A stretch of DNA of 64,000 bases from positions 434,001 to 498,000 of the forward strand of contig NZ_CP035103.1 of assembly GCF_006094695.1 (NCBI RefSeq), read 5' to 3'. Position 1 is the first letter of the stretch, and each line of letters opens with the position of its first letter. Positions 47,282-62,195 of this stretch are shown here, one piece after another. The notes under the pieces are model-generated. The model was not told the DNA's origin. It saw nothing but the letters and a program-made list of their open reading frames with translations, and searched no databases. This DNA comes from Kocuria rosea (lineage in GTDB: Bacteria > Actinomycetota > Actinomycetes > Actinomycetales > Micrococcaceae). Made by a program: the position numbers and the translations under genes.

Positions 47282-48841
47282 CTACACGGAAGAGCTCGGG
47301 GCGCCGAAGTAGGCAGACAATCGCCGCGCCCCATCGCGGGCCAGGTCGACGATGCTGGGCGAGTCATCTGGTTCGTGCAGGATGCCTTCACGCAGTCCGC
47401 TCACAGACAGGGACGCCATCACATGGCCGCGGTGGTCGAAAACAGGAACTCCGACGGCGGCCATGCCCCGGGTCAGTTCGTCGTCGCTCAACGCGAAGCC
47501 GGCATCGCGGATGTCTTTGAGCTTCCCGAAGAACTCCGCCCGGGATCGCGCCCCGAGACTGAAGTCCGGGCTATGGCCCAAGACCACCGCGTAGTCCTCC
47601 CACGCCTTGGGGGAGTCGAAAGCCAATAGGGCGCGGGGCGCTGCGCCGATGTGCAGGGGCAAGGAGTTGCCTAGGGTCAAACGGCGGCTGTTCACACGCT
47701 TGCCCTCGATCCGCTCGATGCACACGGCACGGGGGCCGCTCCTGATGCACAGGAACACCGTTTCGCCTGTGGCGTCGTGAATCTCTTGGAGTATGGGAAG
47801 CGAGGCCCGCCGCAAGTCCAACTGGTTCAAGAGACTCCCCGCGAGGGAGATCATCTTGCTGCCGATTCGATAGGAACCGCGGTGGCCAAGCTGCTCGATC
47901 CAGCCGGCTTCAATGAGGCTCGCCAGCATGCGGTAGATGGAGCTAAGGGGTTCGCCGATGAGCTCCGCGAGTCTTGCGGAAGTCGCCACGCGTTCGACAG
48001 CCAGGGCGTCCATGAGAGAGGCGGCCTTGGCCAGCACCGATCCGTTCGAATCAGGAGCTTTGAATTCACGGGCTGCGAGTGACGGCTTGAAGTCCGCCAT
48101 GAGATCAGTCAACGTCTGAGCGGCGGCCTTGAGGACCCTCATGGCTTCCTCCTGCAGGTTGTCTACCTGGTCGACCAAGCCCGCCGCCGTCAAGGCGCCG
48201 AATATGCTGCCGTCCGGGTTGAAGACGGGAAATCCCAACGCCGCGATGCCGTCGACAACCTCGTTCGACTCCATCCTCCAGCCATCCCGTTTAGTGCCCT
48301 CGACCAGGCGGCGGAGCGTGTCTGCATCCACGGGTGTCCTCGCCGCCAGCTGCGCATAGTGTTCCTGTGCAAGAAGCTCGTCCAGAACCTCGGGCTGCCA
48401 AGCCAGCAGCACATGGGAGGCGGCACCTGCGTGGAGGGGCAGAATGCGCCCGGACGAGAGTTCGTGGAGATCAACCTCGGTGGAATCGACCTGCTCCAAG
48501 CAGACTGCGGTGTCCTTGCGGGGAATCCAGAAGGCGGACGTGAGGCCGAGATCCGACTGGACGCCCTCAAGTACCCGCTCAAGCGCCGCGTGGTCGACGA
48601 GGGCTTCGGTTGCCGCCTCCGCCAGCCTCAAAATGCCGGTGCCCAGCTCCACGAGCCCGCCTGGGGAGCGGCGGAGGATCCCTGACCCCTCCAGCGCGCT
48701 GATGATGCGGTAGACCGACGGCCGCGGTTCCTCCAGGGCCTTCGCCAGATCCGCGGGAATCGAGGGGCCGAGGGCGGATACTTCGTCCACCGCCTGCGTC
48801 GCCTTGAGCACCAGCTGGATCAGCTTGCCCGTATGCTTCAT
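47282..48841 (-). CDS. Tandem (double) IclR-family regulator 1
   Basis: This 519-aa protein contains two complete IclR units in one chain. Unit 1 (about 1-240): winged helix with IPADLAKALEEPRPSVYRIISALEGSG and an effector domain with LPLHAGAASHVLLAW. Unit 2 (about 255-519): winged helix ERVATSARLAELIGEPLSSIYRMLASL and effector domain with TVFLCIRSGPRAVCIERI and LPLHIGAAPRALLAF. Normal IclR proteins are about 250 aa. The start at 48841 has GAGGAG upstream. A palindrome TGGAC-N5-GTCCA lies 144 bp upstream. It follows a CynX-like transporter on the same strand and probably controls it. Confidence 0.9.
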   Translation of the reverse strand: MKHTGKLIQLVLKATQAVDEVSALGPSIPADLAKALEEPRPSVYRIISALEGSGILRRSPGGLVELGTGILRLAEAATEALVDHAALERVLEGVQSDLGLTSAFWIPRKDTAVCLEQVDSTEVDLHELSSGRILPLHAGAASHVLLAWQPEVLDELLAQEHYAQLAARTPVDADTLRRLVEGTKRDGWRMESNEVVDGIAALGFPVFNPDGSIFGALTAAGLVDQVDNLQEEAMRVLKAAAQTLTDLMADFKPSLAAREFKAPDSNGSVLAKAASLMDALAVERVATSARLAELIGEPLSSIYRMLASLIEAGWIEQLGHRGSYRIGSKMISLAGSLLNQLDLRRASLPILQEIHDATGETVFLCIRSGPRAVCIERIEGKRVNSRRLTLGNSLPLHIGAAPRALLAFDSPKAWEDYAVVLGHSPDFSLGARSRAEFFGKLKDIRDAGFALSDDELTRGMAAVGVPVFDHRGHVMASLSVSGLREGILHEPDDSPSIVDLARDGARRLSAYFGAPSSSV

Positions 48842-49225
48842 GCTTGCACTCCTCGGATCGAACTCCTCGCCCGCATGCACTGCGAATGGATGAGAGTCAG
48901 CAAGGATGCCGTTCTTGAGTACTTAACTCAGAACAAAAGCGCCGGGCTGTGGACCCTGACAGCGGCTCAGTCCTCCCATTCCTGTGGACTCCCTGTCCAG
49001 CGTATGCGACTTGCTGTCCGAGGTGACACCGCTCCGCCGGACGCGAGCCTGTCGAAGTCACGCAGGTCGGTGCGGCGGCGGGCAGATGCACGCTGCCTTC
49101 GTTTTCCGGACCGTCCAGCCCGGTGCCGCCCCCGCCCGGCGAAGGGGCTGTCGCAAGACCAGTTTAAGAGTCGATCAGGGCGCCCCTTCTGCGTGCATAC
49201 AGCCCAGTTAAAGACCCTGGTGGGG
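48842..49225. promoter_or_regulatory. Region upstream of IclR 1
   Basis: No gene in 384 bp between two leftward genes. It includes an AT-rich segment near 48915-48945 suitable for a promoter, and the palindrome at 48985-48999. Confidence 0.45.
48985..48999. promoter_or_regulatory. IclR-type palindrome TGGAC-N5-GTCCA, IclR 1 side
   Basis: TGGACTCCCTGTCCA, with exact 5-bp arms. The same arms with the same 5-bp spacing occur at 57667-57681 in front of the operon controlled by IclR 2. Confidence 0.55.
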
Positions 49226-50467
49226 TCATTGGGATGCTTCCACTGATGGACTCTTATGGGTGGGGCGGGTCTCGGCGACGGCCAGGAGGCCGCCGGCCAG
49301 GAACACCAGGGTGGCGCCGAGGACGACCAAGAGCGGCACGGTCCATCCTCCGGTGCCGGCGTTTAGCGCCCCGACCAGGGGTGGGCCGACCGTGGCGGCG
49401 AGGTAGCCGGCGCCCTGGATGCGGGCGGAGGTCGCCGCGGCCTCGGCGTCGGTCCGCACGATGCGTGCGACGATCGAAAAAATCGTGGTGAAGCCCCCGC
49501 CCTGGGCGACGCCGCCAATGACGGACCACACGAGGTAGCCCTCGGGGGCGAGCAGCAGCCCGACGGGCAGGGCGATCCACAGCCCTCCGACGAGGACCAC
49601 CGGCGTCCACGCCGGGGCCCGGTCGGCCAGCAGGGGCACCCCCAGGGCGCCGGCGATGGCGGCGACCTGGAACAGGGAAGCGCTGGCCCCGGAGGCGGCC
49701 AGACTCAGCCCCCGGGTGTCGGCCAGCAGGGTGGGCAGCCACGCGGTGACGGAGTAGTAGGAGAAGGCCTGCCCGCAGAACGCCAGCGTCAGCCACCAGC
49801 CGATGCGCCGGACCTGGCCCGTGCCCCGGGCCTGCCTCAGCGTCCCGGTGGCCGTGCTGGGTTCGGCCGGGGTGGAGGCCGCGGGCGGTGTGCCGGTCCG
49901 GCGGCGCGCCACGACCAGCCAGAAGACGAGGGCCACCACGGTCAGGGCGCCCCAGGCGACCAGGGCCCAGCGCCACCCGACCGCCGCGGCCAGCGGCGCA
50001 GTGCCCAGGGCGGTGATCATCGACCCGACGTTGAGGGCGGCGGTGTAGGCGGCGGTCACCGTGGGGATCCGGCGCCAGGAGACGTCGCGGCGGATGATCA
50101 CCGGGACCACGATGTTGCCCACGGCGATCGCAGTACCGATGACCACGGTGCCGGCCAGGACCACCGCGGTGGGGCCCGCCGAGCGGATCACGGTCCCGGC
50201 CAGCACGCCGCTCAGGCACGCCAAGACGGCCGCCTCGGGCCCGAAGCGTCCGATCAGCTTCGAGGCCAGCGGGGTGACCAGTGCGAAGAGCAGCACCGGC
50301 AGACCCGTGAGCAGGCCCGCGGTCGCCGCCGAGAGCCCGAGCTCGGACTGGATCTGCGTGATGACGGGGGTCGGGGCGATGATCGGCCCGCGCAGGCTCA
50401 GCGCGACGAGCACGATGCCGACGACGACCCACGGCAGGGCGCGCGGCGGGATGGGGAGCGTGCTCAT
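49226..50467 (-). CDS. MFS transporter, CynX/NimT family
   Basis: This 413-aa membrane protein has 12 hydrophobic segments and the CynX/NimT start LRGPIIAPTPVITQIQSELGLS. Relatives carry cyanate, nitroimidazoles or small organic anions, often aromatic or carboxylate; the substrate here is unknown. It precedes the double-IclR gene on the same strand, which suggests a regulated uptake or export system tied to the aromatic island. The start overlaps closely with a 30-codon frame that ends one base before it. Confidence 0.88.
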   Translation of the reverse strand: MSTLPIPPRALPWVVVGIVLVALSLRGPIIAPTPVITQIQSELGLSAATAGLLTGLPVLLFALVTPLASKLIGRFGPEAAVLACLSGVLAGTVIRSAGPTAVVLAGTVVIGTAIAVGNIVVPVIIRRDVSWRRIPTVTAAYTAALNVGSMITALGTAPLAAAVGWRWALVAWGALTVVALVFWLVVARRRTGTPPAASTPAEPSTATGTLRQARGTGQVRRIGWWLTLAFCGQAFSYYSVTAWLPTLLADTRGLSLAASGASASLFQVAAIAGALGVPLLADRAPAWTPVVLVGGLWIALPVGLLLAPEGYLVWSVIGGVAQGGGFTTIFSIVARIVRTDAEAAATSARIQGAGYLAATVGPPLVGALNAGTGGWTVPLLVVLGATLVFLAGGLLAVAETRPTHKSPSVEASQ

Positions 50468-50468
50468 C

Positions 50469-50561
50469 TCAGTCCTTCTGACCGGGCAGCAGACGTTGGA
50501 CGGGTCGGCCGCCGGCGCGGCGTCCGGTGATGCCCGGAGGGGACTCGGGCGCGGTGGTCAT
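50469..50561 (-). CDS. Possible 30-aa leader peptide before the CynX-like gene
   Basis: MTTAPESPPGITGRRAGGRP and ten more residues, with GAGGAG 6 bases before the ATG. The stop is separated by one base from the transporter ATG, and the transporter's own ribosome site (AGAAGGA) lies within this frame. This fits translational coupling. The peptide itself has no recognisable features, and a chance frame cannot be ruled out. Confidence 0.35.
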   Translation of the reverse strand: MTTAPESPPGITGRRAGGRPVQRLLPGQKD

Positions 50562-50640
50562 GACGGCTCCTCGGAGGTCGGGCGGAGCGGGCCCTGCTGA
50601 GACCAGTGGATCCGCGGGGGCGAGGGGCGCCCATGGAAGA

Positions 50641-50667
50641 GGAGGGACAGCCAGCGGCTGTCCCTCC
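50641..50667 (-). terminator. 12-bp hairpin between transporter genes
   Basis: GGAGGGACAGCC pairs exactly with GGCTGTCCCTCC around a 3-base loop. On the minus strand it lies between the sugar transporter and the CynX-like gene, in addition to the hairpin at 50789-50830. Confidence 0.6.
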
Positions 50668-50788
50668 TTCATTCCCAGCACAGTGTGAAGGGCTCATCGC
50701 TGGATGGACGACAACGCCCGGCGAGGTCTCATGCGAGCCGGGGAACCCAGCAACTGCACTGTTTGAGATCACCACAGCAGCCCAGTGG

Positions 50789-50830
50789 TCCCGGGCCGGC
50801 CAACCTGGAGAGGTCGGCCGGCCCGGGACG
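50789..50830 (-). terminator. 19-bp hairpin terminator after the sugar transporter
   Basis: Arms 50789-50807 and 50812-50830 pair with one mismatch around a 4-base loop, 20 bp past the transporter stop. It should end the hydroxyquinol operon. Confidence 0.75.
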
Positions 50831-50849
50831 TGGAGCAGAGCCGTGGGGC

Positions 50850-52346
50850 TCAGGACTGGTGGGCGTCGGCGGGCTTGGCGACCTGGTAGATGGCCCCGGT
50901 GGAGACGTCCTCCTCGAGATCTTCCAGGGAGCGGGCCCGGGTCTCGGGGACCTGGGTGGCCACGAAGATCAGGGCGAGGACGCCGATGCCGGCGAAGAGG
51001 AAGAACGTGCCCGAGATCCCGACCGCGGCAACGAGGGAGGGGAAGAACAGGGCCAGGAAACCGTTCATGGTCCAGCCGAAGAACACCGAGATGCCGATGC
51101 CCAGTCCCCGCATGTGCAGCGGGAAGATCTCCGCCAGCCACACCCAGACGGCGACGTTGAGGAACGTCTGCATCGAGAGCACGAAGGCGACCACGAGGAT
51201 GAGGATCACGATCGGGCGGGCCGGGTGGCCTTCGGGCAGCAGGTTGCCGGCGATCCCGATCAGCAGGTGGCAGGTCGTGGTGAGGCTCAAGCCGATGATG
51301 AAGGTCTTGCGCCGGTCGAGCCGGTCCATGTTGTACAGGGCGATGATGCCACCGATCACGGCCACGGCACCGAAGGCGATGTTGGCCAGCACGGCCTGCT
51401 GCGCTGTCATCCCGGACTCCTCCAGAATACGAGTGCCGTAGTACATGACGGAGTTGATGCCGGTCAGCTGCTGGGTCATGGAGACCCCGATGCCGACCAG
51501 GATGATCCGCAGCAACCACTTGTTCGTCAGGACCGCTTTCAGCCCGATCTGGTGGGCCTGGACCTCGATGGCGGCGATGCGCTCGATCTCCTGCAGCTCG
51601 GCCTTGGCCCGGTCGGCCGGGCGGACCGTCTCCAGCACCGCCAGGGCCTCGTCGTACCGGCCCTTCTCGGTGAGCCAGCGCGGGGACTCGGGCATGCGCA
51701 GCATCCCGATGAACAGTCCGATCGCCGGCAGCGCGGAGACGGCGAACATGATCCGCCAGATGCCCTCCACGACGTCGCCGAGGGTGACGGCGATGACCGC
51801 GTTCATCACGAAGGCGGAGAGCTGTCCGAACACGATCGCCAGTTCGTTGCGGCCGGTGATCGACCCGCGGATCTCGTAGGGGGCGAGCTCGGCCAGGTAC
51901 ACCGGCACGACCGTGGAGGCTCCGCCGACGGCGAGGCCGATCAGGATCCGGCCGCAGACCAGGACCGTGTACCCGGTCAGGGAGAACGTTCCCTCCTCAG
52001 CAGGCGTGGGGGTGAGGACCACCAGGGCGGTGCCGGCGAAGAACAGCACGGCCAGCAGGATGATCGTCCGGCGCCGGCCCCAGGCGTCCGAGACCCGGCC
52101 CCAGACCAGGGCGCCGACGGCGGCGGCGAAGATGAGGGAGCTGATCACCACGCCCAGCTGGAGCAGGTTCAGTCCCAGGTCCTGGGCCATCGGCCCCTCG
52201 GCGCCGTTCGTCACGCCGGTGTCGTAGCCGAACAGCAGCCCGCCCAGGCAAGCGACGACCGAGATCAGTCCGAGCCGTTTCCGGTGCGGCCCCTGGGTCA
52301 ACGGCGGGAGGGCGACCCGGGTGCCGTCTGCGGTGTTGTGTGACAT
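50850..52346 (-). CDS. MFS sugar porter, myo-inositol/sugar transporter type
   Basis: This 498-aa protein has 12 membrane segments and all signatures of the sugar porter family: GRILIGLAVGGASTVVPVYLAELAP, PESPRWL, and QQLTGINSVMYYGT, plus WGRVSDAWGRR. IolT-like inositol transporters and glucose/xylose porters share these. It imports a sugar or cyclitol by proton symport. It is the last gene of the leftward operon with dioxygenase, aldo/keto reductase and maleylacetate reductase. A polyol importer inside an aromatic-ring-cleavage operon is unusual and suggests that the growth substrate is sugar-like. Confidence 0.92.
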   Translation of the reverse strand: MSHNTADGTRVALPPLTQGPHRKRLGLISVVACLGGLLFGYDTGVTNGAEGPMAQDLGLNLLQLGVVISSLIFAAAVGALVWGRVSDAWGRRRTIILLAVLFFAGTALVVLTPTPAEEGTFSLTGYTVLVCGRILIGLAVGGASTVVPVYLAELAPYEIRGSITGRNELAIVFGQLSAFVMNAVIAVTLGDVVEGIWRIMFAVSALPAIGLFIGMLRMPESPRWLTEKGRYDEALAVLETVRPADRAKAELQEIERIAAIEVQAHQIGLKAVLTNKWLLRIILVGIGVSMTQQLTGINSVMYYGTRILEESGMTAQQAVLANIAFGAVAVIGGIIALYNMDRLDRRKTFIIGLSLTTTCHLLIGIAGNLLPEGHPARPIVILILVVAFVLSMQTFLNVAVWVWLAEIFPLHMRGLGIGISVFFGWTMNGFLALFFPSLVAAVGISGTFFLFAGIGVLALIFVATQVPETRARSLEDLEEDVSTGAIYQVAKPADAHQS

Positions 52347-52415
52347 GGGAATTCCTTTGTTGGTGACCTGATGAAGCAGGGATGGATCGTGTGGAGCGCC
52401 GATCCGGTGATGGGG

Positions 52416-53348
52416 CTAGGACTGGGCCGGGGCCAGGACGATGTCGAACCGGGCCTTGGACCAGCTCCGGTCGGTGAGGTCGCGGCCGTCGGGGGTCGGG
52501 GTGCCGGCGGGTTGTTCGGTGAAGTCCTTGATGAGGGATTCCTTGACGCCGAACACGGTGTCGTACTTCAACAGCTCGTCCCCGCGCACGAAGATGTGGG
52601 TGACCAGGGTCCGCAGGCCTTCGGCGGTGACCATGAAGTGCAGGTGTGAGGCGCGCATCGGGGAGCGGCCGGTGGCCTCGAGCATCTTCCCCACCGGCCC
52701 GTCGTGCGGGATGGGGTAGGGGGTGGGGGTGAGGCCCCAGAAGTTGTACCGCCCCTGGTCGTCGCTGAAGAGGTGGGCTCGGCCGGAGACCCGGTTGTCG
52801 TCGTACTGGACGTCGTAGAACCCCTCTTCGTCGGCCTCCCAGACCTCGATCCGCGCCCGGGGCACCGGGTTGCCGTCGGTGTCGGTCACGGTGCCCTCCA
52901 CCCAGCAGGGCTGACCGGGGGCCTCCCCGGCGATGTCCCCGCCGAGGGGGATCTCCGGGGCGTCGTCGACGAAGAAGGGGCCGAAGACGGTGGCTTCGGT
53001 GGCGTCGCCGTAGGCCTCGTTGTTGACGTTGATGGTCTGCATCGAGGCGCCGAGGACGTCGGAGAGCAGGATGAACTCCTGGCGCCGGTCATCGGTGATG
53101 TGCCCGACGGCGGTGAGGAACTCGATCGCCTGGTTCCATTCGGCCTCGGTGAGGCGCACGTCGCGGATGAAGGCGTGCAGGTGCTTCACCAGGGCCTGCA
53201 TCAGCTGCTTCAGTCGCGGGTCCTGGCAGTCCTCGAAGGAGCGCAGCACGGTGCGGATCAGTTGCTCTTCCACCGCCTGCTGGGCGGTGGAGACCTGCGG
53301 GTGCCCGGGAGAGCTCTCGGTGGTGGGGACTGGGGTCTGCTGGGCCAT
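52416..53348 (-). CDS. Hydroxyquinol 1,2-dioxygenase (intradiol)
   Basis: This 310-aa non-heme Fe(III) enzyme cleaves 1,2,4-trihydroxybenzene to maleylacetate. The N-terminal helical linker (about 25-110) is followed by the catalytic beta-sandwich. The iron ligands fit Y178, Y211 (in [10 protein letters not shown]), H235 and H237 (RASHLHF), with the spacing known from intradiol dioxygenases. Catechol-specific relatives are similar, but the next operon gene, maleylacetate reductase, points to hydroxyquinol as substrate. It lies 69 bp upstream of the transporter and 34 bp after the aldo/keto reductase. Confidence 0.88.
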
Positions 53349-53382
53349 GGCGGGCCTGCCTTTCAGTCGTGGAGTCGGCGGT

Positions 53383-54345
53383 CTAACGAACGGGTGTGGA
53401 GACGGGGGAGGGCCTGGAAGCCTCTTCGAGCAGGTCCAGTTCGGGCCGGCTCAAGGGGGTCTCCATGGACTGGAGCAGCGGTTTTAGCTGCTCGGTGTTG
53501 CGGGCGCTGGCGATGGGTGCGACGACCCCGTCCTGGGCGGCCAACCAGGCCAGGGCAATGGCGGCGGGCTCAACGTCGTGTTCCGCGGCGACCTGCTTGA
53601 GGGCGTGGAGCACGGCCCGGCCCTGGGTGGTGAGGTACTGGGAGGCCTCGGAGGCGCGAGGGGTGTCGACCGGACCCTCCCCGGTGTACTTGCCGGTGAG
53701 GAAGCCGTGGGCCAGGGAGTAGTACGGCATCACGGCTAGGCCATGGGTGCGGGCCAGTGGGAGGACGTCGGTCTCGATGCCGCGCTCGACCAGGCTGTAC
53801 TGGGGCTGCAGGACGATGGGGGTGTGGAAGCCTTCCCGGTCGGTGATCCGCAGCCATTCCGCGATGCGCTCGGCCGTGAAGTTGGACAGCCCGATGGAAC
53901 GGACCTTGCCCTGGTCCACGAGTTGGGACATGGCCTCGATGCTCTCGACCAGCGGGGTGTCGGGGTCGTCGTAGTGGGCGTAGTAGATGTCGATGGCCTC
54001 GACCCCCAGCCGGGACAGGGACCCGTCGACGGCGGTGCGGATGGTCTCCGGGGCCAGGCCGGCCAGTTGCGGGTGGTGGCTGACCTTCGTGGCGATCACC
54101 AGCTCGTCGCGGTCGCTGCGGCCGGTGAGCCATTGACCGATGATGGTCTCGGATTCTCCGCCGCTGTTGCCGTCGGCCCAGAACGAGTAGGAGTCGGCGG
54201 TGTCCAGGACGTTGCCCCCGGACTCGACGTAGCGGTCGAGGATCCGGTGCGAGGTGGCGGCGTCGGCGGTCCACCCGAAGACGTTGGTGCCCAACGCCAG
54301 CGGGGAGACGTCGAGTCCGGGGGCGATGGTCTGCGTGGCGGCCAA
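53383..54345 (-). CDS. Aldo/keto reductase
   Basis: This 320-aa NADPH-dependent (beta/alpha)8 reductase has the catalytic tetrad in DTADSYSFW (Asp, Tyr), VIATKVSHH (Lys) and [11 protein letters not shown] (His), and a C-terminal cofactor site [11 protein letters not shown]. It belongs to the group of YajO/IolS-like aldo/keto reductases that act on sugar aldehydes or ketones. In this operon it may reduce a keto sugar or cyclitol intermediate. It sits between maleylacetate reductase and the dioxygenase. Confidence 0.9.
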
Positions 54346-54416
54346 GGGTGTCCTCCTGGTGTCGTAACGGTGCGCGGTGCAGGTCGTGGTGGGTGGGTAG
54401 GTGTCGGGGGCGAAGG

Positions 54417-55541
54417 TCAGGCGCCGGGATGGGCGCTGGGGGCTTCCCCGGCCCAGGCGGCGCGCAGCAGGGCCCGGGCGTCCTCATACGTGACCGGCCG
54501 GGGGTTGCCGTAGGAACGGCTCGTGACCTCCTCGGCGATGCGCTCGATGTCCTCCTCCTGCATGCCCAGCTCGGCCAGGGACCGCGGCGCGTCGAGCTCC
54601 TCGGCGATCTGCCACAGCCGCGCGGCCGGATCTGGGGCCCCGCCCAGCGCCCGCGACAGCGCCGCGGTCGCCTCGGGGGCCGCGGGCTGGTTGAAGGCCA
54701 GGGCGTGGGGCAGGACCACGGTGTGGGTCTGGGCGTGGGGCAGGTTCAGAGTCCCGCCCAGGGCGTGGCACAGCTTGTGGTGCAGGGACATGGTGGTCGC
54801 CCCCAGGCAGGCCCCGCACAGCCACGACCCGTAGAGGGCCTCGCTGCGGGCCGCGGGGTCGGTGCCGTCGGCGGCGATCGCCGGCAGCGCTGTGGCCAGG
54901 GCCCGGACTCCCTCCTCGGCCATCAACGAGATGATCGGGGTGGCGTCGGGGGCGTAGAGGGCCTCCACGGCATGGGCGATGGCGTTGATGCCACTGGTCA
55001 CCGACATCGGCACCGGCAGCGTCGCCGAGAGCTCGGGGTCATAGACCACGCTGCGCGGCAGCACCCGCGGGTCCCGGCCGGTCTCCTTGCGCCCATCGGT
55101 GGTCAAACCCCACACAGGGGTCATCTCAGACCCGGCGTAGGTGGTCGGCACCGCCACGATCGGCAGGCCGTGCTGCAGCGCGATGGCCTTGCCCAACCCG
55201 ATTGCAGAGCCTCCACCGACGGCCACACAACCATCGGCACCCACCCGGGCCGCTTCCTCACTGGCGCGCTGGGCGACCTCGCTGGGCACATGCATCACCG
55301 CTTCGGGCAGCACCCCCACACAGCGGGTGCCCAGTGCCTGGGCCACCCGCTGGCCGGTGTCCTCCTGCTCCGGAGAGCACAGGACCAGCACACGCGCCAG
55401 CCCGATCGCATCCAGCTCCTCGGGCAGGGTCGACAGGGTCCCGGCGCCGAAGCGGACCCGCATGGGCAGGGCCTCGTAGACGAACTGGCGGGAGGCCAGG
55501 GGCGTGTCGGTCAGGGTGGTCTCGTTGGTCTGGGCGTTCAT
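54417..55541 (-). CDS. Maleylacetate reductase
   Basis: This 374-aa enzyme of the iron-alcohol-dehydrogenase superfamily reduces maleylacetate to 3-oxoadipate with NAD(P)H, feeding the beta-ketoadipate pathway. Motifs: cofactor loop GGGSAIGLGKAIAL, PTTYAGSEMTPVWG, the His cluster GINAIAHAVEALYA, and HHKLCHALGGTLNLPHAQTH. These last segments are typical of maleylacetate reductases rather than general alcohol dehydrogenases. First gene of the leftward operon; its promoter region is shared with the second double-IclR gene. Confidence 0.92.
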   Translation of the reverse strand: MNAQTNETTLTDTPLASRQFVYEALPMRVRFGAGTLSTLPEELDAIGLARVLVLCSPEQEDTGQRVAQALGTRCVGVLPEAVMHVPSEVAQRASEEAARVGADGCVAVGGGSAIGLGKAIALQHGLPIVAVPTTYAGSEMTPVWGLTTDGRKETGRDPRVLPRSVVYDPELSATLPVPMSVTSGINAIAHAVEALYAPDATPIISLMAEEGVRALATALPAIAADGTDPAARSEALYGSWLCGACLGATTMSLHHKLCHALGGTLNLPHAQTHTVVLPHALAFNQPAAPEATAALSRALGGAPDPAARLWQIAEELDAPRSLAELGMQEEDIERIAEEVTSRSYGNPRPVTYEDARALLRAAWAGEAPSAHPGA

Positions 55542-56011
55542 GTGGGGACCTTCCGATGGACTGGAACGGGTGGATGGGCCGGCGGGTCAGCAGGAGCTCG
55601 AGCGGCCCACGGGGTCGATGCCGCAGACCGTCGCCGGCAGCAGCACGAGGTCCTCGCGGTCCTCGCGGATCGCCGTGGCACCGGCGGATCTACCACCCCT
55701 CGTGATGGCTGGCGGAGGAAACACCGTTTCGCGGAGCAGCCGGTGGCGGTAGCTACCCCGGTGCCGCCACCGGCCGCGCTGCCGGGGAAGTGATTTCCTA
55801 CGACCGCTTAGTACCGTACAATGGACAACATGTTCGCACAGTAGCACGGCAAGGCGCTAGGGGTGATCCAGGTTACGTTGGGATCGCGCTGGTCTGCGGC
55901 GGTGGCGGCTCGGGCGACATGACGGTCGCCTGCACCAGCGCAGGCGGGTCTGCTCACCTGCGGGGTGCCGGCCTGTGTTAGCCACGGAACGCGCGAAGAA
56001 CGAGGTCAGCA
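55542..56011. promoter_or_regulatory. Divergent control region, maleylacetate reductase / IclR 2
   Basis: This 470-bp stretch has no credible gene. It holds a possible -10 box TACAAT (55817-55822, + strand) that overlaps the 13-bp operator at 55821-55833. Near 55650 a short direct repeat (CCTCGCGGTCCTCGCGG) is present. Confidence 0.55.
55821..55833 (-). promoter_or_regulatory. IclR 2 operator, copy at the leftward operon
   Basis: Read leftward the site is ACATGTTGTCCAT, 280 bp upstream of maleylacetate reductase and 179 bp upstream of IclR 2. The exact reverse complement is at 57670-57682, where it reads the same way relative to the rightward operon. Confidence 0.6.
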
Positions 56012-57640
56012 GTGAACACCATTCAGCTCTTGCACAAGGCCAGCCAGGTGGTCGACGAGCTGGCCCGGAGGAGTCCCTCGACCCCGGCGGAGCTGGCCAA
56101 GGCGGTGTCCGAGCCCCGGTCGACCATCTACCGCATCACCGCGGGGCTGGAGCAGGCCGAGCTGATCCGCTCCAACGGCGAGGGCAAGCTCGAACTCGGG
56201 GTGGGGATCCTGCGACTGGGAGACGCCGCCGTCGATGCCCTCGTGGACCGCGCGGCCTTGCACGAGAAGCTGATGTGGGTCCGCGGCCAGCTCGGCGTCG
56301 GCGCCTTCTTCTGCGTGCTGCGCGAGAACGGGGCACTGTGCCTGGATCAGGTCCACGGCTCCGAGGTGGACCTGTTCCACCTCACCCCCGGGGGCCTGCT
56401 GCCCTTGCACGCCGGGGCCCCGTCCCTGGCCCTGCTGGCCTTCGCCGCCCCGGAGGCACAGGCCGCCGTGCTGGAGAACGCGCCCTTCGACCGGCTGGCC
56501 TCGGGCACCGCGCTCACGGCCGCGGAACTGCGGGAGAAGCTGGACCAGACCGCGGCCCGCGGGTGGAGCGTGGAGGACAGCACGATCATCGAAGGCGTGG
56601 CCACGATCGGGGTGCCTGTGAGGCACCAGGACGGATCGGTGCTGGGGGTGATCGCGGTGGCCGGACTGCGCGAGAGCGTGCTGAACCAGGAATCGGTGGC
56701 CACCGGTGTGCTGCGCACCGCCGCTGAGGCCATCACAGCGGCCATGGACCGCCCCGAACGCACGCAAACCCCCCGGACTGACCATGTGCCCGCCTCGCCA
56801 TCGCCGGCCCACAGCGGTGCCCGGCAGCCGGCGGCGATCACCAAGGCCAGCGCCCTGATGGACGCCCTGGCCCGGGAGCGGATCGCCACCTCGGGGCGCC
56901 TGACCGAACTGCTCGGGGAGCCGGTGACCTCGGTCTACCGCATGCTCGCCACCCTGGCCGAGGCCGGGTGGGTCGAGCAGATCGGCCACCGGGGCGCCTA
57001 CCGGGTGGGCTCCAAGATGCTGTCCCTGGCCGGGGAACTGACCCGGCAACTGGATCTGCGCCGGGCCTGCCGCCCCGTGCTCCAGCAGATCCACGAGGCC
57101 ACCGGGGAGACCACCTTCTTGTGCATCCGACGCGGCACCCGGGCCGTGTGCATCGAACGCCTCGACGGGATCCGGGTCAACAGCCGCGTGCTGCAGCTGG
57201 GGGAGTCCCTGCCCCTGCACGTGGGTGCCGCCCCCCGGGCCCTGCTGGCCTTCGAAGGACGCGCCGCCTGGGAGGAATACGCCGCCATCATGAACCACAG
57301 CGGCGAGCCGTGGCGCGATGTGCGCTCCCGATCGGAGTTCTACGCCGACCTCGAGGAGATCCGCGCCCAGGGCTACGTGCGCAGCGACAACAACGTCACC
57401 CCGGGCATCGCCGCGATCGGCGCCCCCATCTTCGACCACCGCGGCGACGTCGTCGCCTCCCTGTCGGTCAGCGGGCTGCGCGAGGGCGTCCTGGCCCCGG
57501 CCGGTGACCACCCCTCCGTCACCGAGCTCGTGCGCCAGGGAGCCCAGACGCTCTCGCGCTACCTGGGCGCCCCGCAGGCCGGCCCGGACCTCCTGGACCA
57601 GGAATGGGCCGCACTGGAAGTGTCCCAGGTCATAGATTGA
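56012..57640 (+). CDS. Tandem (double) IclR-family regulator 2
   Basis: This 542-aa protein repeats the IclR fold twice. Unit 1 (about 1-245) has the winged helix STPAELAKAVSEPRSTIYRIT and an effector domain with LPLHAGAPSLALLAF. A linker of about 30 residues rich in Pro and Thr (around 250-275) joins unit 2 (about 280-525), which has RIATSGRLTELLGEPVTSVYRML and LPLHVGAAPRALLAF. It is clearly paralogous to IclR 1. Position between two divergent catabolic operons, with an operator at each, makes it their likely common regulator. IclR proteins govern several hydroxyquinol and gamma-resorcylate operons (known). Confidence 0.9.
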   Translation: MNTIQLLHKASQVVDELARRSPSTPAELAKAVSEPRSTIYRITAGLEQAELIRSNGEGKLELGVGILRLGDAAVDALVDRAALHEKLMWVRGQLGVGAFFCVLRENGALCLDQVHGSEVDLFHLTPGGLLPLHAGAPSLALLAFAAPEAQAAVLENAPFDRLASGTALTAAELREKLDQTAARGWSVEDSTIIEGVATIGVPVRHQDGSVLGVIAVAGLRESVLNQESVATGVLRTAAEAITAAMDRPERTQTPRTDHVPASPSPAHSGARQPAAITKASALMDALARERIATSGRLTELLGEPVTSVYRMLATLAEAGWVEQIGHRGAYRVGSKMLSLAGELTRQLDLRRACRPVLQQIHEATGETTFLCIRRGTRAVCIERLDGIRVNSRVLQLGESLPLHVGAAPRALLAFEGRAAWEEYAAIMNHSGEPWRDVRSRSEFYADLEEIRAQGYVRSDNNVTPGIAAIGAPIFDHRGDVVASLSVSGLREGVLAPAGDHPSVTELVRQGAQTLSRYLGAPQAGPDLLDQEWAALEVSQVID

Positions 57641-57666
57641 CCCCCACCACCCTCCATGGCATGCTG

Positions 57667-57682
57667 TGGACATGTTGTCCAT
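57667..57682 (+). promoter_or_regulatory. IclR 2 operator, copy at the rightward operon
   Basis: TGGACATGTTGTCCAT contains the 13 bases ACATGTTGTCCAT (57670-57682) identical to the site at 55821-55833, and forms the palindrome TGGAC-N5-GTCCA. It lies about 145 bp upstream of the first Gfo/Idh gene and 27 bp past the IclR 2 stop. Confidence 0.6.
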
Positions 57683-57824
57683 CAGGTGGCACTAGCAGCT
57701 GGTGGTTATCCGGCACCCGGATCACTCCGGGTCGCCACGCGCACCCGGCCTGAAGCTCCCCGCGGCACGCCGGACGCCCCCATCACCCCCGAGCCTGAGG
57801 CTCACAAGGACAGGAGACACTGCG

Positions 57825-58907
57825 TTGGAACCGATTGTCGTAGGACTACTGGGCATCACCCACCCGCACGCCTCCGCGCGGGTCCGTGCCCTCCGGGAGA
57901 TCGATGGGGTCGAGGTGGTGGCCGCCGCCGACGACGACTCGCGGCTGAACTACTTCACCGACAAGTACGACATGGAGGCCCGCAGTGTGGAGGCCGTGCT
58001 CCAGGACGAGCGCATCAACGCGATCATGGTCCACTCCAAGAGCAAGGACATGGTCGCCCACGCGCTGCGCGCCCTGGAGGCCGGCAAGTCCGTGGTGGTG
58101 GAGAAGCCCGGCGGTGGCACGGTGGAGGACCTGGAGCGCCTGGCCGAGGCCGAGGCCCAGGCCGGGCCCGGGCAGGTCGTCCAGGTCGGCTACAACGTGC
58201 GCCTGGCCCAGTCGATCACCCGGGCCAAAGAGCTGATCGAGGCCGGGGTGATCGGGGAGGTCGTCACCGTCGCCGCCCGTGGTGCGGCCCTGGTGGGCGA
58301 GCACCGCACCGCGCACCTGAACCAGCCGGCGGACATGGGCGGGGTCCTGTGGATCCTGGGCTGTCACATGCTCGACTCCCTCGTGCACATGTTCGGTGCC
58401 CCCGAGTCCGTCAACGCCCGGGTGCACAAGTCCGCCCGCCTCTCGGATGAGACCAGCCGGGAGGACTCCGCGGCGGTGCTGCTGAACTACCCGGACATGT
58501 CCATGACCTTCAGCTTCGACGGCCACGATCCGCTCGAGTGGTTCGAGAGCTCCCGGATCACCGTCTACGGCACCGCCGGGATGATCGAGCTCGGCATCCT
58601 GCCCCAGAAGCTGCGGGTCTACGTGGAGAAGGACCGGGCCGGCTGGCCGGCCGGCTGGACCGAATGGACGCAGAGCTACTTCACACCGCCGTTCGCCCGC
58701 ACCGAGGCGAACAAGTTCTCCGAGCTGCCCGAGCTGGAGAACATCAGCAACTTCCACACCGAGATGCGCGGATGGGTCCAGAGCATCCGCACCGGAGCCC
58801 CGGTGGTGGCCCCGGTCGCCGACGCCCTGGCCGTGGCGCGCATCGTCAAGGCCTGCTACCGCTCCGAGAAGGACCGTGGAGCCTGCATCGAGGTGGCCAC
58901 GGCATGA
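57825..58907 (+). CDS. Gfo/Idh/MocA-family oxidoreductase 1
   Basis: This 360-aa NAD(P)-dependent dehydrogenase starts at a TTG with AGGAG 8 bases upstream (MEPIVVGLLGITHPHASARV). The frame extends further upstream without similarity. The N-terminal Rossmann part has GITHPHASARVRALREI and the catalytic-lysine motif VVEKPGGGT; the C-terminal alpha/beta part has GGVLWILGCHMLDSLVHMFG. The family oxidises sugars, inositols or glycosides at a ring carbon. It differs from the other two copies in the block after the EKP motif, so it probably acts on another substrate or step. Confidence 0.88.
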   Translation: MEPIVVGLLGITHPHASARVRALREIDGVEVVAAADDDSRLNYFTDKYDMEARSVEAVLQDERINAIMVHSKSKDMVAHALRALEAGKSVVVEKPGGGTVEDLERLAEAEAQAGPGQVVQVGYNVRLAQSITRAKELIEAGVIGEVVTVAARGAALVGEHRTAHLNQPADMGGVLWILGCHMLDSLVHMFGAPESVNARVHKSARLSDETSREDSAAVLLNYPDMSMTFSFDGHDPLEWFESSRITVYGTAGMIELGILPQKLRVYVEKDRAGWPAGWTEWTQSYFTPPFARTEANKFSELPELENISNFHTEMRGWVQSIRTGAPVVAPVADALAVARIVKACYRSEKDRGACIEVATA

Positions 58908-58927
58908 ACACGAAGAAAGAAGAGACC

Positions 58928-59800
58928 ATGAACCCTGACCTGATTGCCACCTGCTGGGTGAGTGCCGGCGACGCCGCCCCCATGCGCGGGGACGAGACCA
59001 GCCCCATCCCCCTGGCCGAGCGCATCACCGCCATCGCCCAGACCGGGTGGGCCGGCATCGGCCTGGTCCACGCCGACCTGGTGCAGGCCCGCGACACCAT
59101 CGGCTACCCCGAGCTCTCCCGGCTGATCCGCGAGGCGGGCATCGGCATCGTGGAGGTCGAGTTCCTCAACGAGTGGTGGACCACCGGGGCCGAGCGGGCA
59201 GCAGCCGATGCTTTGCGCGCCGATCTGTTCGAAGCCGCCACCGCCCTGGGGGCCCGGCACATCAAGGTCGGGGCGGGCATGACCGGCCAAAGCGGGCCTC
59301 TGCCGTTCGCGACGTTGGCCGACGCGTTCTCCGATCTGGCCGACGAGGCCGCCGACGCCGGGATCCGCCTGGCCCTGGAAGCCACCCCGTTCTCTCACCT
59401 GCGCACCACGCACGAGGCGGTGGAGGTCATCAACCAGGCCGACAACCCCGCCGCGGGCCTGCTGATCGACATCTGGCACACCTACCGGGGCGGGCTCTCC
59501 CACGACGACCTGTACAACGTGGTGCCGATCGAACGGGTCTACGCCGTGGAGATCGACGACGGGCTCGAGCAGATCGTCGGCACCGTCTTCGAGGACACGA
59601 TCAACAACCGCGCCTACTGCGGGGAAGGCGACTTCGACACCGCCACCTTCATCCAGCGCACCCTCGAGGCCGGCTACCAGGGCCCGTGGGGTGTGGAGAT
59701 CATCTCGGCCCAGCACCGCAGCAAGCCCCTCCTCGAGGGCCTGCGCTACGCCCACGAGACCGCTTTGAGCTCCTTCTCCCACGCCCTCCAGAAGATCTGA
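58928..59800 (+). CDS. Xylose isomerase-like TIM-barrel protein (sugar phosphate isomerase/epimerase, IolE/IolI type)
   Basis: This 290-aa protein belongs to the AP-endonuclease-2-like TIM-barrel family. Metal-binding acids are suggested by VEVEFLNEWW, LALEATPFSHL, LLIDIWHTYRGG, and GVEIISAQHR. Members include inosose dehydratase (IolE), inosose isomerase (IolI), sugar epimerases and the lyases that split oxidised glycosides by beta-elimination. The ATG at 58928 has AAGAAGAG upstream; an ATG at 58904 overlapping the previous stop (ATGA) is an alternative. Between Gfo/Idh genes, a dehydratase or lyase role on a keto intermediate is the best guess. Confidence 0.85.
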   Translation: MNPDLIATCWVSAGDAAPMRGDETSPIPLAERITAIAQTGWAGIGLVHADLVQARDTIGYPELSRLIREAGIGIVEVEFLNEWWTTGAERAAADALRADLFEAATALGARHIKVGAGMTGQSGPLPFATLADAFSDLADEAADAGIRLALEATPFSHLRTTHEAVEVINQADNPAAGLLIDIWHTYRGGLSHDDLYNVVPIERVYAVEIDDGLEQIVGTVFEDTINNRAYCGEGDFDTATFIQRTLEAGYQGPWGVEIISAQHRSKPLLEGLRYAHETALSSFSHALQKI

Positions 59801-59994
59801 CCCGGCCCCACCCGGGCAGCTCCCCGCTCACCACACCCCGACAGGGAGACGGCGCGGGCAGGACGAGACCCGCGGCAGTCCGTGTCGCCGAATCCGCCGG
59901 GTGCTGGGCGCAGGTCCGCCTGCGCCCAGCACCCGGGCCTGCCCCGCGGCCCACACCCCAGCCTGACTCTCACTCTTTGACGAAAGGACACACC

Positions 59995-61026
59995 ATGTCC
60001 AACGACCGACGCCTGCGCCTGGCCCTGTTCGGCTCCGGGCGGATCGGGCAGGTCCACGCCCGCAACGTGGCCGCCAACCCCGACCTCGACCTGGTCCTGA
60101 TCGCCGACCCCTTCATCGACGCCGCCCAGCGTCTGGCGGCGCAGACCGGCGCGCGGGCCGTGCAGGACCCCGCAGAGGTCTTCGCCGAGCCAGGCCTCGA
60201 CGGGGTCATCATCGGCTCTCCCACCCCCACCCACGTCGACCTCATCACCCGTGCGGCCGCCCACGGGCTGGCCGTGCTGTGCGAGAAGCCCATCGACCTG
60301 GACATCGACACCGTCCGGGCCTGCCAGGAACAGATCAGCGGCCACACCGTGCCCATCATGCTCGGCTTCAACCGCCGCTTCGACCCCAATTTCGCCGAGG
60401 TCCGCGCCCGGGTGGAAGCCGGAGAGGTCGGGGCGCTGGAGCAGCTGATCATCACCAGCCGCGACCCCGCCCCGGCCCCGCGCGACTACATCGCCAGCTC
60501 CGGGGGCATCTTCCGGGACATGACCATCCACGACCTGGACATGGCCCGGTTCTTCGTCCCGGACATCGTGGAGGTCACCGCCGTGGGCGCCAACGTCTTC
60601 AGCGAGGAGATCAAGGAGCTCGACGACTACGACTCCGTCACCGTCACCCTGCGCGGCAGCGGCGGTGAGCTGATCACCATCATCAACTCCCGTCACTGCG
60701 CCTCCGGCTACGACCAGCGCCTGGAAGCCTTCGGCGCCACCGGCATGCTCACCGCCGGCAACGTCACCTCGACCACGGTGCGCAAGTCCGGTGCCACCGG
60801 GACCGAGGAAGCCGGCGCGTTCATGCCGTTCTTCCTCGAGCGCTACGGCCAGGCCTACCGGTCCGAACTGGACGCCTTCGCCCACTCCATCCGCACCGGC
60901 GCGCCCTGCTCACCCAGCTTCGACGACGGTGTCACCGCCCTGGTCCTGGCCAACGCCGCCGCCGAATCCGCGGCCACTGGCAAGAGCGTGACCGTGGCCC
61001 GGGCCGCCGCACCCAGCGCGGGCTGA
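59995..61026 (+). CDS. Gfo/Idh/MocA-family oxidoreductase 2, inositol 2-dehydrogenase-like
   Basis: This 343-aa dehydrogenase opens with the Rossmann motif LALFGSGRIGQVHARNVAANP, has the LCEKPIDLD lysine motif, GFNRRFDPNF and the active-site region SSGGIFRDMTIHDLDMARFF with the catalytic Asp and His. All are typical of inositol 2-dehydrogenase IolG and relatives. It oxidises a ring hydroxyl of a cyclitol or sugar with NAD+. AAAGGA lies 7 bases before the ATG. Gap to the previous gene is 194 bp, GC-rich, without a gene. Confidence 0.9.
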   Translation: MSNDRRLRLALFGSGRIGQVHARNVAANPDLDLVLIADPFIDAAQRLAAQTGARAVQDPAEVFAEPGLDGVIIGSPTPTHVDLITRAAAHGLAVLCEKPIDLDIDTVRACQEQISGHTVPIMLGFNRRFDPNFAEVRARVEAGEVGALEQLIITSRDPAPAPRDYIASSGGIFRDMTIHDLDMARFFVPDIVEVTAVGANVFSEEIKELDDYDSVTVTLRGSGGELITIINSRHCASGYDQRLEAFGATGMLTAGNVTSTTVRKSGATGTEEAGAFMPFFLERYGQAYRSELDAFAHSIRTGAPCSPSFDDGVTALVLANAAAESAATGKSVTVARAAAPSAG

Positions 61027-61106
61027 ACCGGCAGAACCCCTTTTTTCAGAGGCGCCCGTGTCACGGACGCCTTCCTGATCGACACGACGTGAGAGAAGAG
61101 AAAGAC

Positions 61107-62195
61107 ATGAAGACTTTGACCCTGGGGCTCGTCGGCGTCGGCCGGATCGGCCAGATGCACGCCCAGAACCTGCTGACCGTCCGGGACCAGGTCGCCGCCC
61201 GCGGCGTGCAGCTGGAGATCGTGCTCGCCGACGCCGACCCGCAGGCCGCCCGCCAGGTCGGTGACCGGCTGGGCCTGCGCGCCGCCGGCAGCCTCGAGGC
61301 GATGATCGGGGAGGGCATCGACGGGCTCATCATCGCCACCAACACCGCCACCCACCCCGATCTGATCCGCGCCGGGCTCGCCGCCGGGCTGCCGGTGTTC
61401 TGCGAGAAGCCCGTCTCCTCCGACGTCATCGGCGCGCTGCCCCTGCTCAAAGAGATCGAGGCCGCCTCCGGGGTCGTCCAGATCGGCCACCAGCGCCGCT
61501 TCGACGCGGGCTACCAGGAGGCCAAGCGCCGCTTCGAGGCCGGCGACCTCGGCTGGCTCCACAGCCTGCGGGCCGTGTCCGGGGACGCGTTCCCGCCCGC
61601 GGTGGAGTACCTGGCGAGCTCCGGGGGGATCTTCCGCGACATGAGCGTGCACGACTTCGACCTGATCCGCTGGCTGACCGGCCAGGAGATCGTCGAGGTC
61701 TACGCCCGCGGCACCAACAACGGGGACCCCGCCATCCGCGCGGTCGGTGACGTCGACACGGCCCAGGCCGTGCTCACCCTCGCCGACGGCACCCTCGCCA
61801 CGGCCGCGGCCACCCGCTACAACGGGGCCGGCCACGATGTCCGCCTCGACGTCCAGGGATCCAAGGACACCCTGGTCGCCGGCCTCGACGACCGCTCCGC
61901 GCTGCGCTCCGCCGAACCCGAGGTGAACTTCCCGGCCGGGAAAGCCCACGCGACCTTCGCCGAGCGGTTCGCCGACGCCTACGTGGCCGAGCTGGTCGCC
62001 TTCGTCGAACTCGTCCTGGGCGAACGCGAGAACCCGTGCACCCCCTTCGACGCCGTCGCCGCCTCCCTCGTGGCCGACGCCGCCCAGCTCTCCCTCACCC
62101 GGGGTGAGCCGGTGGCCGTCCCGTCGCTGCGCGCGGTCCTCGACGGCACAGCCGAACCGGTCCCCGCCGTCGACCTGGTCCCGGTCCCCGCCTGA
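61107..62195 (+). CDS. Gfo/Idh/MocA-family oxidoreductase 3, inositol 2-dehydrogenase-like
   Basis: This 362-aa paralog of the preceding gene has LGLVGVGRIGQMHAQNLL, VFCEKPVSSD, GHQRRFDAGY and SSGGIFRDMSVHDFDLIRWL, with the catalytic Asp/His kept. The ATG at 61107 has GAGAAGAGAAAG upstream; a GTG at 61089 is less likely. Two IolG-like enzymes in tandem suggest oxidation of two different positions or epimers of one substrate, for example a cyclitol. A perfect 13-bp hairpin ends the operon. Confidence 0.9.
   Translation: MKTLTLGLVGVGRIGQMHAQNLLTVRDQVAARGVQLEIVLADADPQAARQVGDRLGLRAAGSLEAMIGEGIDGLIIATNTATHPDLIRAGLAAGLPVFCEKPVSSDVIGALPLLKEIEAASGVVQIGHQRRFDAGYQEAKRRFEAGDLGWLHSLRAVSGDAFPPAVEYLASSGGIFRDMSVHDFDLIRWLTGQEIVEVYARGTNNGDPAIRAVGDVDTAQAVLTLADGTLATAAATRYNGAGHDVRLDVQGSKDTLVAGLDDRSALRSAEPEVNFPAGKAHATFAERFADAYVAELVAFVELVLGERENPCTPFDAVAASLVADAAQLSLTRGEPVAVPSLRAVLDGTAEPVPAVDLVPVPA

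Follow-up and report, generated by a model that had tools for sequence, protein, structure and literature searches.

The 64,000-nucleotide stretch of Kocuria rosea DNA considered here, which we call the window, covers positions 434001-498000 of C1, the one contig of a 3.95-Mb genome (G000), and at 50850-62195 it holds two divergent gene groups that probably act together in a catabolic route from a cyclitol to hydroxyquinol and on to 3-oxoadipate. The minus strand encodes a maleylacetate reductase (MAR), an aldo/keto reductase (AKR), a hydroxyquinol 1,2-dioxygenase (HQDO) and a sugar porter; the plus strand encodes an IclR-family regulator, a Gfo/Idh-fold protein (GFO1), a xylose-isomerase-like TIM-barrel protein and two further Gfo/Idh proteins (GFO2 and GFO3). 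An earlier note had listed these genes from the letters of the sequence, and the open reading frame list together with Pfam and model scans found each of them where the note had placed it.

On the aromatic side, HQDO (52416..53348, minus strand; PF04444 and PF00775) scores 490.5 bits against the solved hydroxyquinol 1,2-dioxygenase 1tmx, and the best catechol dioxygenase reaches 111.8 bits. MAR (54417..55541, minus strand), of the iron-containing alcohol dehydrogenase (Fe-ADH) type, matches the chains named maleylacetate reductase, 3w5s and 3hl0, at 336.5 and 333.4 bits and lies nearest to 3jzd (414 bits). These scores bear out both enzyme labels given earlier, and the cluster thus contains the dioxygenase and the reductase of the hydroxyquinol branch of the 3-oxoadipate pathway, a branch that occurs in resorcinol, nitrophenol and gamma-resorcylate clusters. 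The AKR (53383..54345, minus strand; PF00248, 242 bits) is regarded as accessory, and the porter, a major facilitator superfamily (MFS) transporter of the sugar porter family with a presumed IolT2-like role (50850..52346, minus strand), scores 328 bits with Pfam Sugar_tr and passes the sugar-porter model TIGR00879 (325 bits, cut-off 238). Just as the earlier note had said, no aromatic hydroxylase was found, either in a Pfam scan of the 11 main genes in 47282-62195 or by tblastn with three hydroxylases over 42001-64000 of the window, and the cluster is therefore not filed as a resorcinol-type cluster.

The other group, on the plus strand, opens with a double-length, IhtR-like regulator (56012..57640) that carries two IclR_C and two HTH_IclR stretches. 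It is followed by GFO1 (57825..58907), whose start codon is probably the TTG at 57825, the TIM-barrel gene (58928..59800), GFO2 (59995..61026) and GFO3 (61107..62195). GFO2 passes the inositol 2-dehydrogenase model TIGR04380 (381 bits, cut-off 355), so that this enzyme of the canonical inositol pathway is represented; GFO3, which has a GHD motif, stays under the same cut-off at 290 bits. A marker Tyr in GFO2 and a His at the motif V position in GFO3 place them with the OxiD group and with the OxiE group (group ii of PMC9603128, as its passages describe it), respectively. GFO1 differs from inositol dehydrogenases in having Ile for their catalytic Asp; among the 120 homologues listed, this position holds Ile in 112 and Val in 8. 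A fold search with GFO1 returned general Gfo/Idh matches that do not tell substrates apart.

The predicted structure of the TIM-barrel protein (predicted local distance difference test score, pLDDT, 97.1) has 2g0w, 5hmq and 1i60 as its nearest folds, and the nearest relatives of known function are the QuiC-type dehydratase 5hmq, which we take to be QuiC1, and IolI, with 21% and 17% identity in the structure match. Six residues (E151, D181, H184, E208, R228 and E257), presumably the metal-site ligands of the fold, are invariant in 44 of 44 sequences and align with residues of 5hmq; they are not specific to dehydratases. The protein is probably a metal-dependent dehydratase or isomerase. Against the QuiC model it scores 71 bits (cut-off 1200), over positions 14-249 of 635. 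It had been called IolE/IolI-like before: the IolI half of that label stands, IolI being among the nearest relatives, and the IolE half falls away, there being no match to the IolE model TIGR04379 at E 0.001.

Both gene groups carry the same operator-like element. Its core, TGGACAACATGTYC, occurs at exactly two sites in the 3.95-Mb genome, one per operon: as TGGACAACATGTTC at 55822-55835 (plus strand) in the divergent gap between MAR and the IclR gene, where a wider conserved element surrounds TGGACAACATGTTCGCACAGTACCA, and as an inverted copy, TGGACAACATGTCC, at 57668-57681 (minus strand) between the IclR gene and GFO1. The related loci L003-L011 and their extensions have close forms of the element in the corresponding gap, and L012 has a variant. 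Since the two exact sites fall one at each operon, common control of both is supported, which agrees with the shared regulation proposed in the earlier note; the IclR regulator may act on the two groups through this predicted operator. One-mismatch forms occur at four further sites (C1:118270, 1195888, 1604431 and 3209927), which we take as chance, their surrounding genes showing, by eye, nothing related to the cluster; the reversed pattern has one site at one mismatch or fewer. A promoter and terminator consensus scan of 55500-57900 found nothing.

The association of these genes extends to other genomes. A species-genome collection searched with the TIM-barrel protein yielded 12 loci, ten of which (L003-L012, 67-82% TIM identity) have GFO1, the TIM-barrel gene and GFO2 together; L010 holds a second TIM copy (64%), and L013 and L014 (TIM 43%) have no GFO1 match. 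HQDO, MAR and GFO1 occur together in Sinomonas, several Arthrobacter, Pseudarthrobacter, Paeniglutamicibacter, Rhodococcus aetherivorans and a Rhodococcus metagenome-assembled genome (MAG); in L007 the contig stops after MAR, and an HQDO fragment sits at the edge of another contig. A second sample consisted of 397 genomes from the order to which R. aetherivorans belongs; with GFO1 as the query it gave four matches, R. aetherivorans itself and three new genomes (L135-L137), all three with HQDO and MAR beside GFO1. Many more GFO1 homologues exist (169 in one search). The neighbourhood was read in 14 genomes: in all 14, MAR and GFO1 are no more than about 6 kb apart, and HQDO is within about 8.4 kb in 13, the remaining one meeting a contig end; ten of these 14 genomes were found through the TIM-barrel protein, so that the second sample alone tests GFO1 free of that choice. 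For comparison, the chance of a single HQDO gene lying within 10 kb of a given gene is about 0.4%. The linkage of Gfo/Idh and hydroxyquinol genes is real.

In L136 and L137, two distant genomes, TIM, HQDO, MAR, GFO1 and a GFO3-like gene follow one another on a single strand, the matches as far as GFO1 being separated by 57-180 bases. In L135 the ends of GFO1 and HQDO share about 16 bases, with MAR next. Their dioxygenases are 45-50% identical to the window HQDO, and the divergent L137 copy remains nearest to hydroxyquinol-type enzymes, with 328.6 bits to a 6-chlorohydroxyquinol dioxygenase. Among 396 genomes of the window's own order, three including the window have a TIM-barrel protein of at least 78% identity, with HQDO nearby in all three; 18 others have one of 38-47%, and an HQDO match (E <= 1e-70) is present in 3 of these 18, on another contig. 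When 394 genomes across the class were searched with TIM, the one addition was G608 (47%), where the 14 kb read contain no HQDO. The AKR is missing from five of the 13 linked clusters in which the HQDO side was read (L109, L012 and L135-L137, that is, the R. aetherivorans, Rhodococcus MAG and second-sample clusters), and because of this we dropped it as an essential step.

Transport genes and downstream enzymes vary around this core. Sugar porters are found in the window, L003, L012 and L137, and L111 has both a porter and an importer; L004 carries a complete sugar ATP-binding cassette (ABC) importer between MAR and the IclR gene, on the MAR strand, that passes the ChvE, GguA and GguB NCBIfam models, a block of the ChvE/GguAB type is recognisable by sequence in L005-L009, L011 and L113, and L135 has a different sugar ABC importer. 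In L008 and L009 the cluster has a thiolase and a coenzyme A (CoA)-transferase as neighbours (of the L008 pair, the transferase passes its model and the thiolase is under the pcaF cut-off), and a homologue of the CoA-transferase subunit PcaI, 74% identical, is present in the Kocuria genome.

An informative comparison is with HQDO genes outside such clusters. Our HQDO survey covered 18 genomes, three with a TIM-linked gene and 15 without, and gave 16 unlinked places, of which 15 (L066-L080) were read, the contig-edge copy G101:C18 and the distant intradiol dioxygenase of the Kocuria genome (30%, L081) being left out of the counts. By tblastn, an aromatic hydroxylase lies in the stretch at 15 of 15, three of these being self-matches, as the queries came from L066, L067 and L080. 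Second HQDO loci in cluster genomes add one with a hydroxylase (L114, 80%) and one without (L112). Hydroxylases thus adjoin 16 of 17 unlinked HQDO genes, none of 10 TIM-linked ones (the window, L064, L065, L108-L111, L113, L115 and L012) and none of the three in L135-L137. The Fisher p for 0/10 vs 16/17 is 1.3e-6, which overstates independence because the genomes are related; the flanks differ in length, and families unrelated to the three queries would be missed. In trees that carried a long-branch warning and were used for their branch pattern alone, the linked MARs form one clade (support 99/98), and linked and hydroxylase-linked HQDOs intermix, so that HQDO function is probably unchanged between the two sorts of locus (L003, labelled as a control in these trees, is the same genome as L064, a linked cluster).

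Its proteins mark the locus as the counterpart of the iol2 region of Corynebacterium glutamicum, iolT2-rhcM2D2 and ihtR-oxiC-cg3390-oxiD-oxiE. The TIM-barrel protein is 58% identical to the C. glutamicum protein P0074 of the Cg3390 family, GFO2 scores 487.7 bits to 3EUW, which is C. glutamicum OxiD (PMC9603128), GFO1 is 77% identical to a C. suranareeae protein, and the regulator shares 245 of 520 residues (47%) with the C. suranareeae double IclR. With gene order on the C. glutamicum side taken from the relevant passages of PMC7764795 and PMC9603128 and not from DNA, the gene set is orthologous and the regulator-side order identical; the aromatic-side porter comes first there and last in the window, which adds the AKR, and many relatives of the window use a ChvE/GguAB ABC importer instead. 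In PMC7764795, as far as its passages go, Cg3388 (IhtR) is an IclR-type repressor that binds the gap before iolT2-rhcM2D2, which encodes an inositol porter, MAR and a ring-cleaving dioxygenase; its binding is disturbed by 1,2,4-trihydroxybenzene above 0.05 mM, the lowest effector dose, by hydroquinone above 0.5 mM and by indole above 4 mM, and rhcM2 RNA with inositol or resorcinol added is comparable to that on indole addition. The mutation V310A reported there implies that IhtR is longer than a single IclR protein.

For the other half of the region, passages of PMC9603128 describe an operon oxiC-cg3390-oxiD-oxiE in which OxiD is a myo- and D-chiro-inositol dehydrogenase dependent on nicotinamide adenine dinucleotide (NAD) and OxiE, likewise an NAD inositol dehydrogenase, prefers scyllo-inositol. 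OxiC has Ile for the catalytic Asp, as does GFO1, and its function is left unassigned by those authors. A published model of OxiC shows a blocked pocket. More than 20 genes rise on myo-inositol, most of them in two iol clusters; a strain lacking all seven dehydrogenase genes and cg3390 regrows with suitable single dehydrogenases, which means that cg3390 is not needed for those inositols (PMC9603128). PMC7764795 notes the inositol porter in the operon and tests inositol as an effector, and the passages of the two papers on which we draw do not join the two halves of the locus into a pathway.

Taken together, the literature on the C. glutamicum counterpart, the conserved linkage, the one-strand arrangements, the genome-unique operator and the hydroxylase comparison support the central idea of the earlier note, that hydroxyquinol is supplied from a sugar-like ring compound and needs no hydroxylase, and we consider it probable that the locus encodes a route in which a cyclitol becomes hydroxyquinol through oxidation and dehydration, and not through hydroxylation of a phenol. 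How water is removed, what GFO1 does and which compound is the substrate are inferred. The porter, or a ChvE/GguAB-type importer in many relatives, would import the cyclitol, and GFO2 or GFO3, as enzymes of OxiD/OxiE type, would turn one hydroxyl of the ring into a ketone. Water could then be removed by the TIM-barrel protein through metal-assisted enolisation and beta-elimination, in the manner of IolE and QuiC-type dehydratases, and GFO1, of the OxiC family, might carry out the remaining step towards the ring, either reduction of a diketone or a redox-neutral, NAD-assisted elimination. HQDO would open the ring to maleylacetate, MAR would yield 3-oxoadipate, and a CoA-transferase and a thiolase would finish the route, with the IclR regulator sensing hydroxyquinol and controlling both operons through the shared operator.

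The chemistry admits more than one substrate. Quercitol (C6H12O5), oxidised once to C6H10O5, gives hydroxyquinol (C6H6O3) on loss of two H2O, a balance that the earlier note had given and that holds; any inositol balances as well (C6H12O6 minus three H2O is C6H6O3), a case that the note had not mentioned. If a deoxyinosose carries its carbonyl beside the CH2 group, loss of two waters would lead to exactly the 1,2,4-isomer; a carbonyl elsewhere would give pyrogallol. An inositol would have to pass through oxidation, dehydration, reduction and two further dehydrations, a net loss of three H2O with no net redox change; the proteins this would call for, one TIM barrel and two of dehydrogenase type, are those that the window and L003-L012 have retained. 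Synthetic precedent is found in passages of PMC11467972, which describe 1,2,4-trioxybenzenes made from protected inositol in a threefold elimination and the 1,2,3,5-tetraol series obtained from a protected inosose. If the route exists, a quercitol-type deoxyinositol is our leading candidate, held somewhat short of probable; an inositol isomer seems an unlikelier choice, as unlikely as some other cyclitol.

Several observations weigh against such a route. The similarity of the TIM-barrel protein to QuiC1 and IolI is too distant to fix its reaction. The TIM-barrel gene has no match in the 20 kb fetched for L135, and no copies of the operator were found in L135-L137. Canonical iolD is present in 9 of the 10 cluster genomes searched, and two homologues of a flavin adenine dinucleotide (FAD) monooxygenase (30-31%) lie elsewhere in the Kocuria genome, found with one FAD hydroxylase query, so that a hydroxylase outside the cluster is a possible further source of hydroxyquinol; one query with a two-component hydroxylase, which proves little, found no match in the genome. 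From C. glutamicum comes the report that 5 mM inositol, resorcinol and other compounds hardly release IhtR, and that inositol-dependent control of iolT2 was not observed, the authors supposing other aromatics as the source of hydroxyquinol (passages of PMC7764795). On myo-inositol, moreover, iolD is essential and the iol2 genes are dispensable, which implies that myo-inositol alone does not feed the route in C. glutamicum (PMC9603128, in part).

Some of the same facts bear on the simpler view that the Gfo/Idh operon serves plain myo-inositol catabolism, which the earlier note had named as an outcome that would count against it. This view is weakened, and we do not favour it, because canonical iolD lies elsewhere, over the cut-off in the Kocuria genome at C1:2960673-2962595 only, outside the cluster, and because of the dispensability of iol2 just described (PMC9603128). 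A related possibility, to which we give little credence, is that two unconnected functions merely lie side by side under a common regulator, the Gfo/Idh operon scavenging inositol isomers and HQDO and MAR removing hydroxyquinol derived from aromatics, such as resorcinol, that are handled elsewhere. OxiD and OxiE alone do give inositol growth via the classic path (PMC9603128, in part), rhcM2D2 is transcribed on resorcinol while not needed for it (passages of PMC7764795), and the weak FAD monooxygenase homologues could act in such a scheme; yet the most constant partner of HQDO and MAR is GFO1, found with MAR in all 14 genomes and orthologous to a C. glutamicum protein that is no inositol dehydrogenase, the four genes TIM, HQDO, MAR and GFO1 share one strand in L136 and L137, and a hydroxylase is a neighbour in none of the 13 linked clusters.

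The second idea of the earlier note, that the Gfo/Idh and TIM-barrel proteins cleave an O- or C-linked aryl glycoside by C3 oxidation and beta-elimination and so free a hydroxyquinol- or hydroquinone-type aglycone for HQDO, has become less likely, and we regard it as improbable. Few glycosides of hydroxyquinol occur naturally, the largest gaps of the GFO operon (184 and 194 bases) are too short for a small subunit of DgpB type, GFO2 passes the inositol dehydrogenase model, and inositol dehydrogenases appear at similar Z within the GFO1 fold-search list. OxiD and OxiE, moreover, act on free inositols (PMC9603128, in part), and the L135 stretch has no TIM-barrel match. It is also very improbable that the intradiol dioxygenase and the Fe-ADH act on substrates other than hydroxyquinol, with no aromatic step at all. 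Their activities in the window are assigned from sequence, and the L135-L137 dioxygenases have diverged from that of the window to the extent given above; against this stand the score of HQDO with its solved namesake, the closeness of even the L137 copy to hydroxyquinol-type enzymes and the best response of the C. glutamicum regulator being to hydroxyquinol (passages of PMC7764795).

In its widest form, the cyclitol-to-hydroxyquinol proposal would be that inositol-family cyclitols have a second, aromatic exit in Actinobacteria including C. glutamicum, in which GFO2 or GFO3, the TIM-barrel protein and the Asp-less GFO1 dehydrate the cyclitol to hydroxyquinol with no oxygen for aromatisation, and in which OxiC is a new type of Gfo/Idh-fold enzyme acting in aromatisation and not an inositol dehydrogenase; we put this forward tentatively, as something rather short of probable. 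A report of a cyclitol-to-hydroxyquinol route was not found in our searches of the openly licensed literature. If true, this would be a new peripheral route into the 3-oxoadipate pathway, one that makes an aromatic ring from a saturated cyclic polyol by removing water and requires no hydroxylase for hydroxyquinol, in parallel to the conversion of quinate to protocatechuate. It would provide functions for OxiC and Cg3390 (PMC9603128), explain an inositol porter in a ring-cleavage operon under a regulator that answers hydroxyquinol and not inositol (PMC7764795, in part), make a concrete prediction in a well-studied industrial organism, C. glutamicum, and possibly allow benzenetriol and 3-oxoadipate to be made biologically from plant cyclitols.

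The proposed route borrows from several known systems and departs from each. With the hydroxyquinol branch of the 3-oxoadipate pathway it has HQDO, MAR and the end product 3-oxoadipate in common; it differs in having no hydroxylase in the cluster and in the separate clade of its MARs. As in the canonical inositol pathway (iolG, iolE, iolD, iolB, iolC, iolJ), NAD-dependent oxidation of a cyclitol would come first and a TIM-barrel protein next, but the cluster has neither iolD nor IolE, and the predicted exit of the carbon is by way of an aromatic ring, not of ring hydrolysis by IolD. In the quinate/shikimate route a 3-dehydroshikimate dehydratase (QuiC, AsbF) forms protocatechuate; here the substrate class would be another, with no carboxylate, the product would be hydroxyquinol and the score with the QuiC model is low. 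Levoglucosan and C-glycoside (DgpA-C) systems use Gfo/Idh and TIM-barrel proteins for oxidation and elimination, and the window has the same pairing of Gfo/Idh proteins with a xylose-isomerase-like TIM barrel; it differs in its attached HQDO and MAR, its inositol-type GFO2 and the lack of a DgpB-sized gap in the operon.

A number of smaller observations concern the variants of the cluster. In L135 (7302-16458), GFO1, HQDO and MAR are divergent from the sugar ABC importer, which is followed by two short-chain dehydrogenases and a cupin, with no TIM-barrel match, so that from the sequence the dehydrogenase and dehydratase parts look exchanged. At L010:7520-12313 a sugar porter and a TIM-GFO3 pair are transcribed divergently, and the gap between them has one operator match; a second near-match and other traces of the window's MAR/IclR gap are seen by eye. 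This is apparently a shortened copy of the window's arrangement. In L003, a second TIM-barrel gene (27%) and partial HQDO-like (44%) and TIM-like (41%) matches at 288-1776 and 2303-2599 look as if a related cluster had decayed beside the intact one. A gene for a ModA-like binding protein adjoins the clusters at L108:10416-11156 (by eye) and L008:12464-13102 (ModA model, under cut-off). Distant TIM relatives (42-47%) accompany Gfo/Idh genes and a protein of similar start in L087, L089, L090, L013, L014 and L136:3090-4370, mostly with no HQDO; the L136 member of that similar-start protein belongs to the phytanoyl-CoA dioxygenase family, and these loci perhaps represent another cyclitol-like pathway.

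The second HQDO locus of Pseudarthrobacter enclensis (L112:679-10114) has an HQDO/MAR pair and no hydroxylase found in 20 kb. Next to the pair lie a gene for a DUF4440/SnoaL-like protein and, divergent from it, a sugar ABC importer accompanied by two short-chain dehydrogenases and a gene that by eye is alcohol-dehydrogenase-like, a content that may perhaps indicate a second, non-homologous way to make hydroxyquinol. Finally, the window itself encodes a second double-length IclR regulator (47282..48880, minus strand; Pfam domain scan), a homologue of which lies past HQDO in L065, L108 and L111, and which is the best match to the GFO1-adjoining regulator of L113 and L115.

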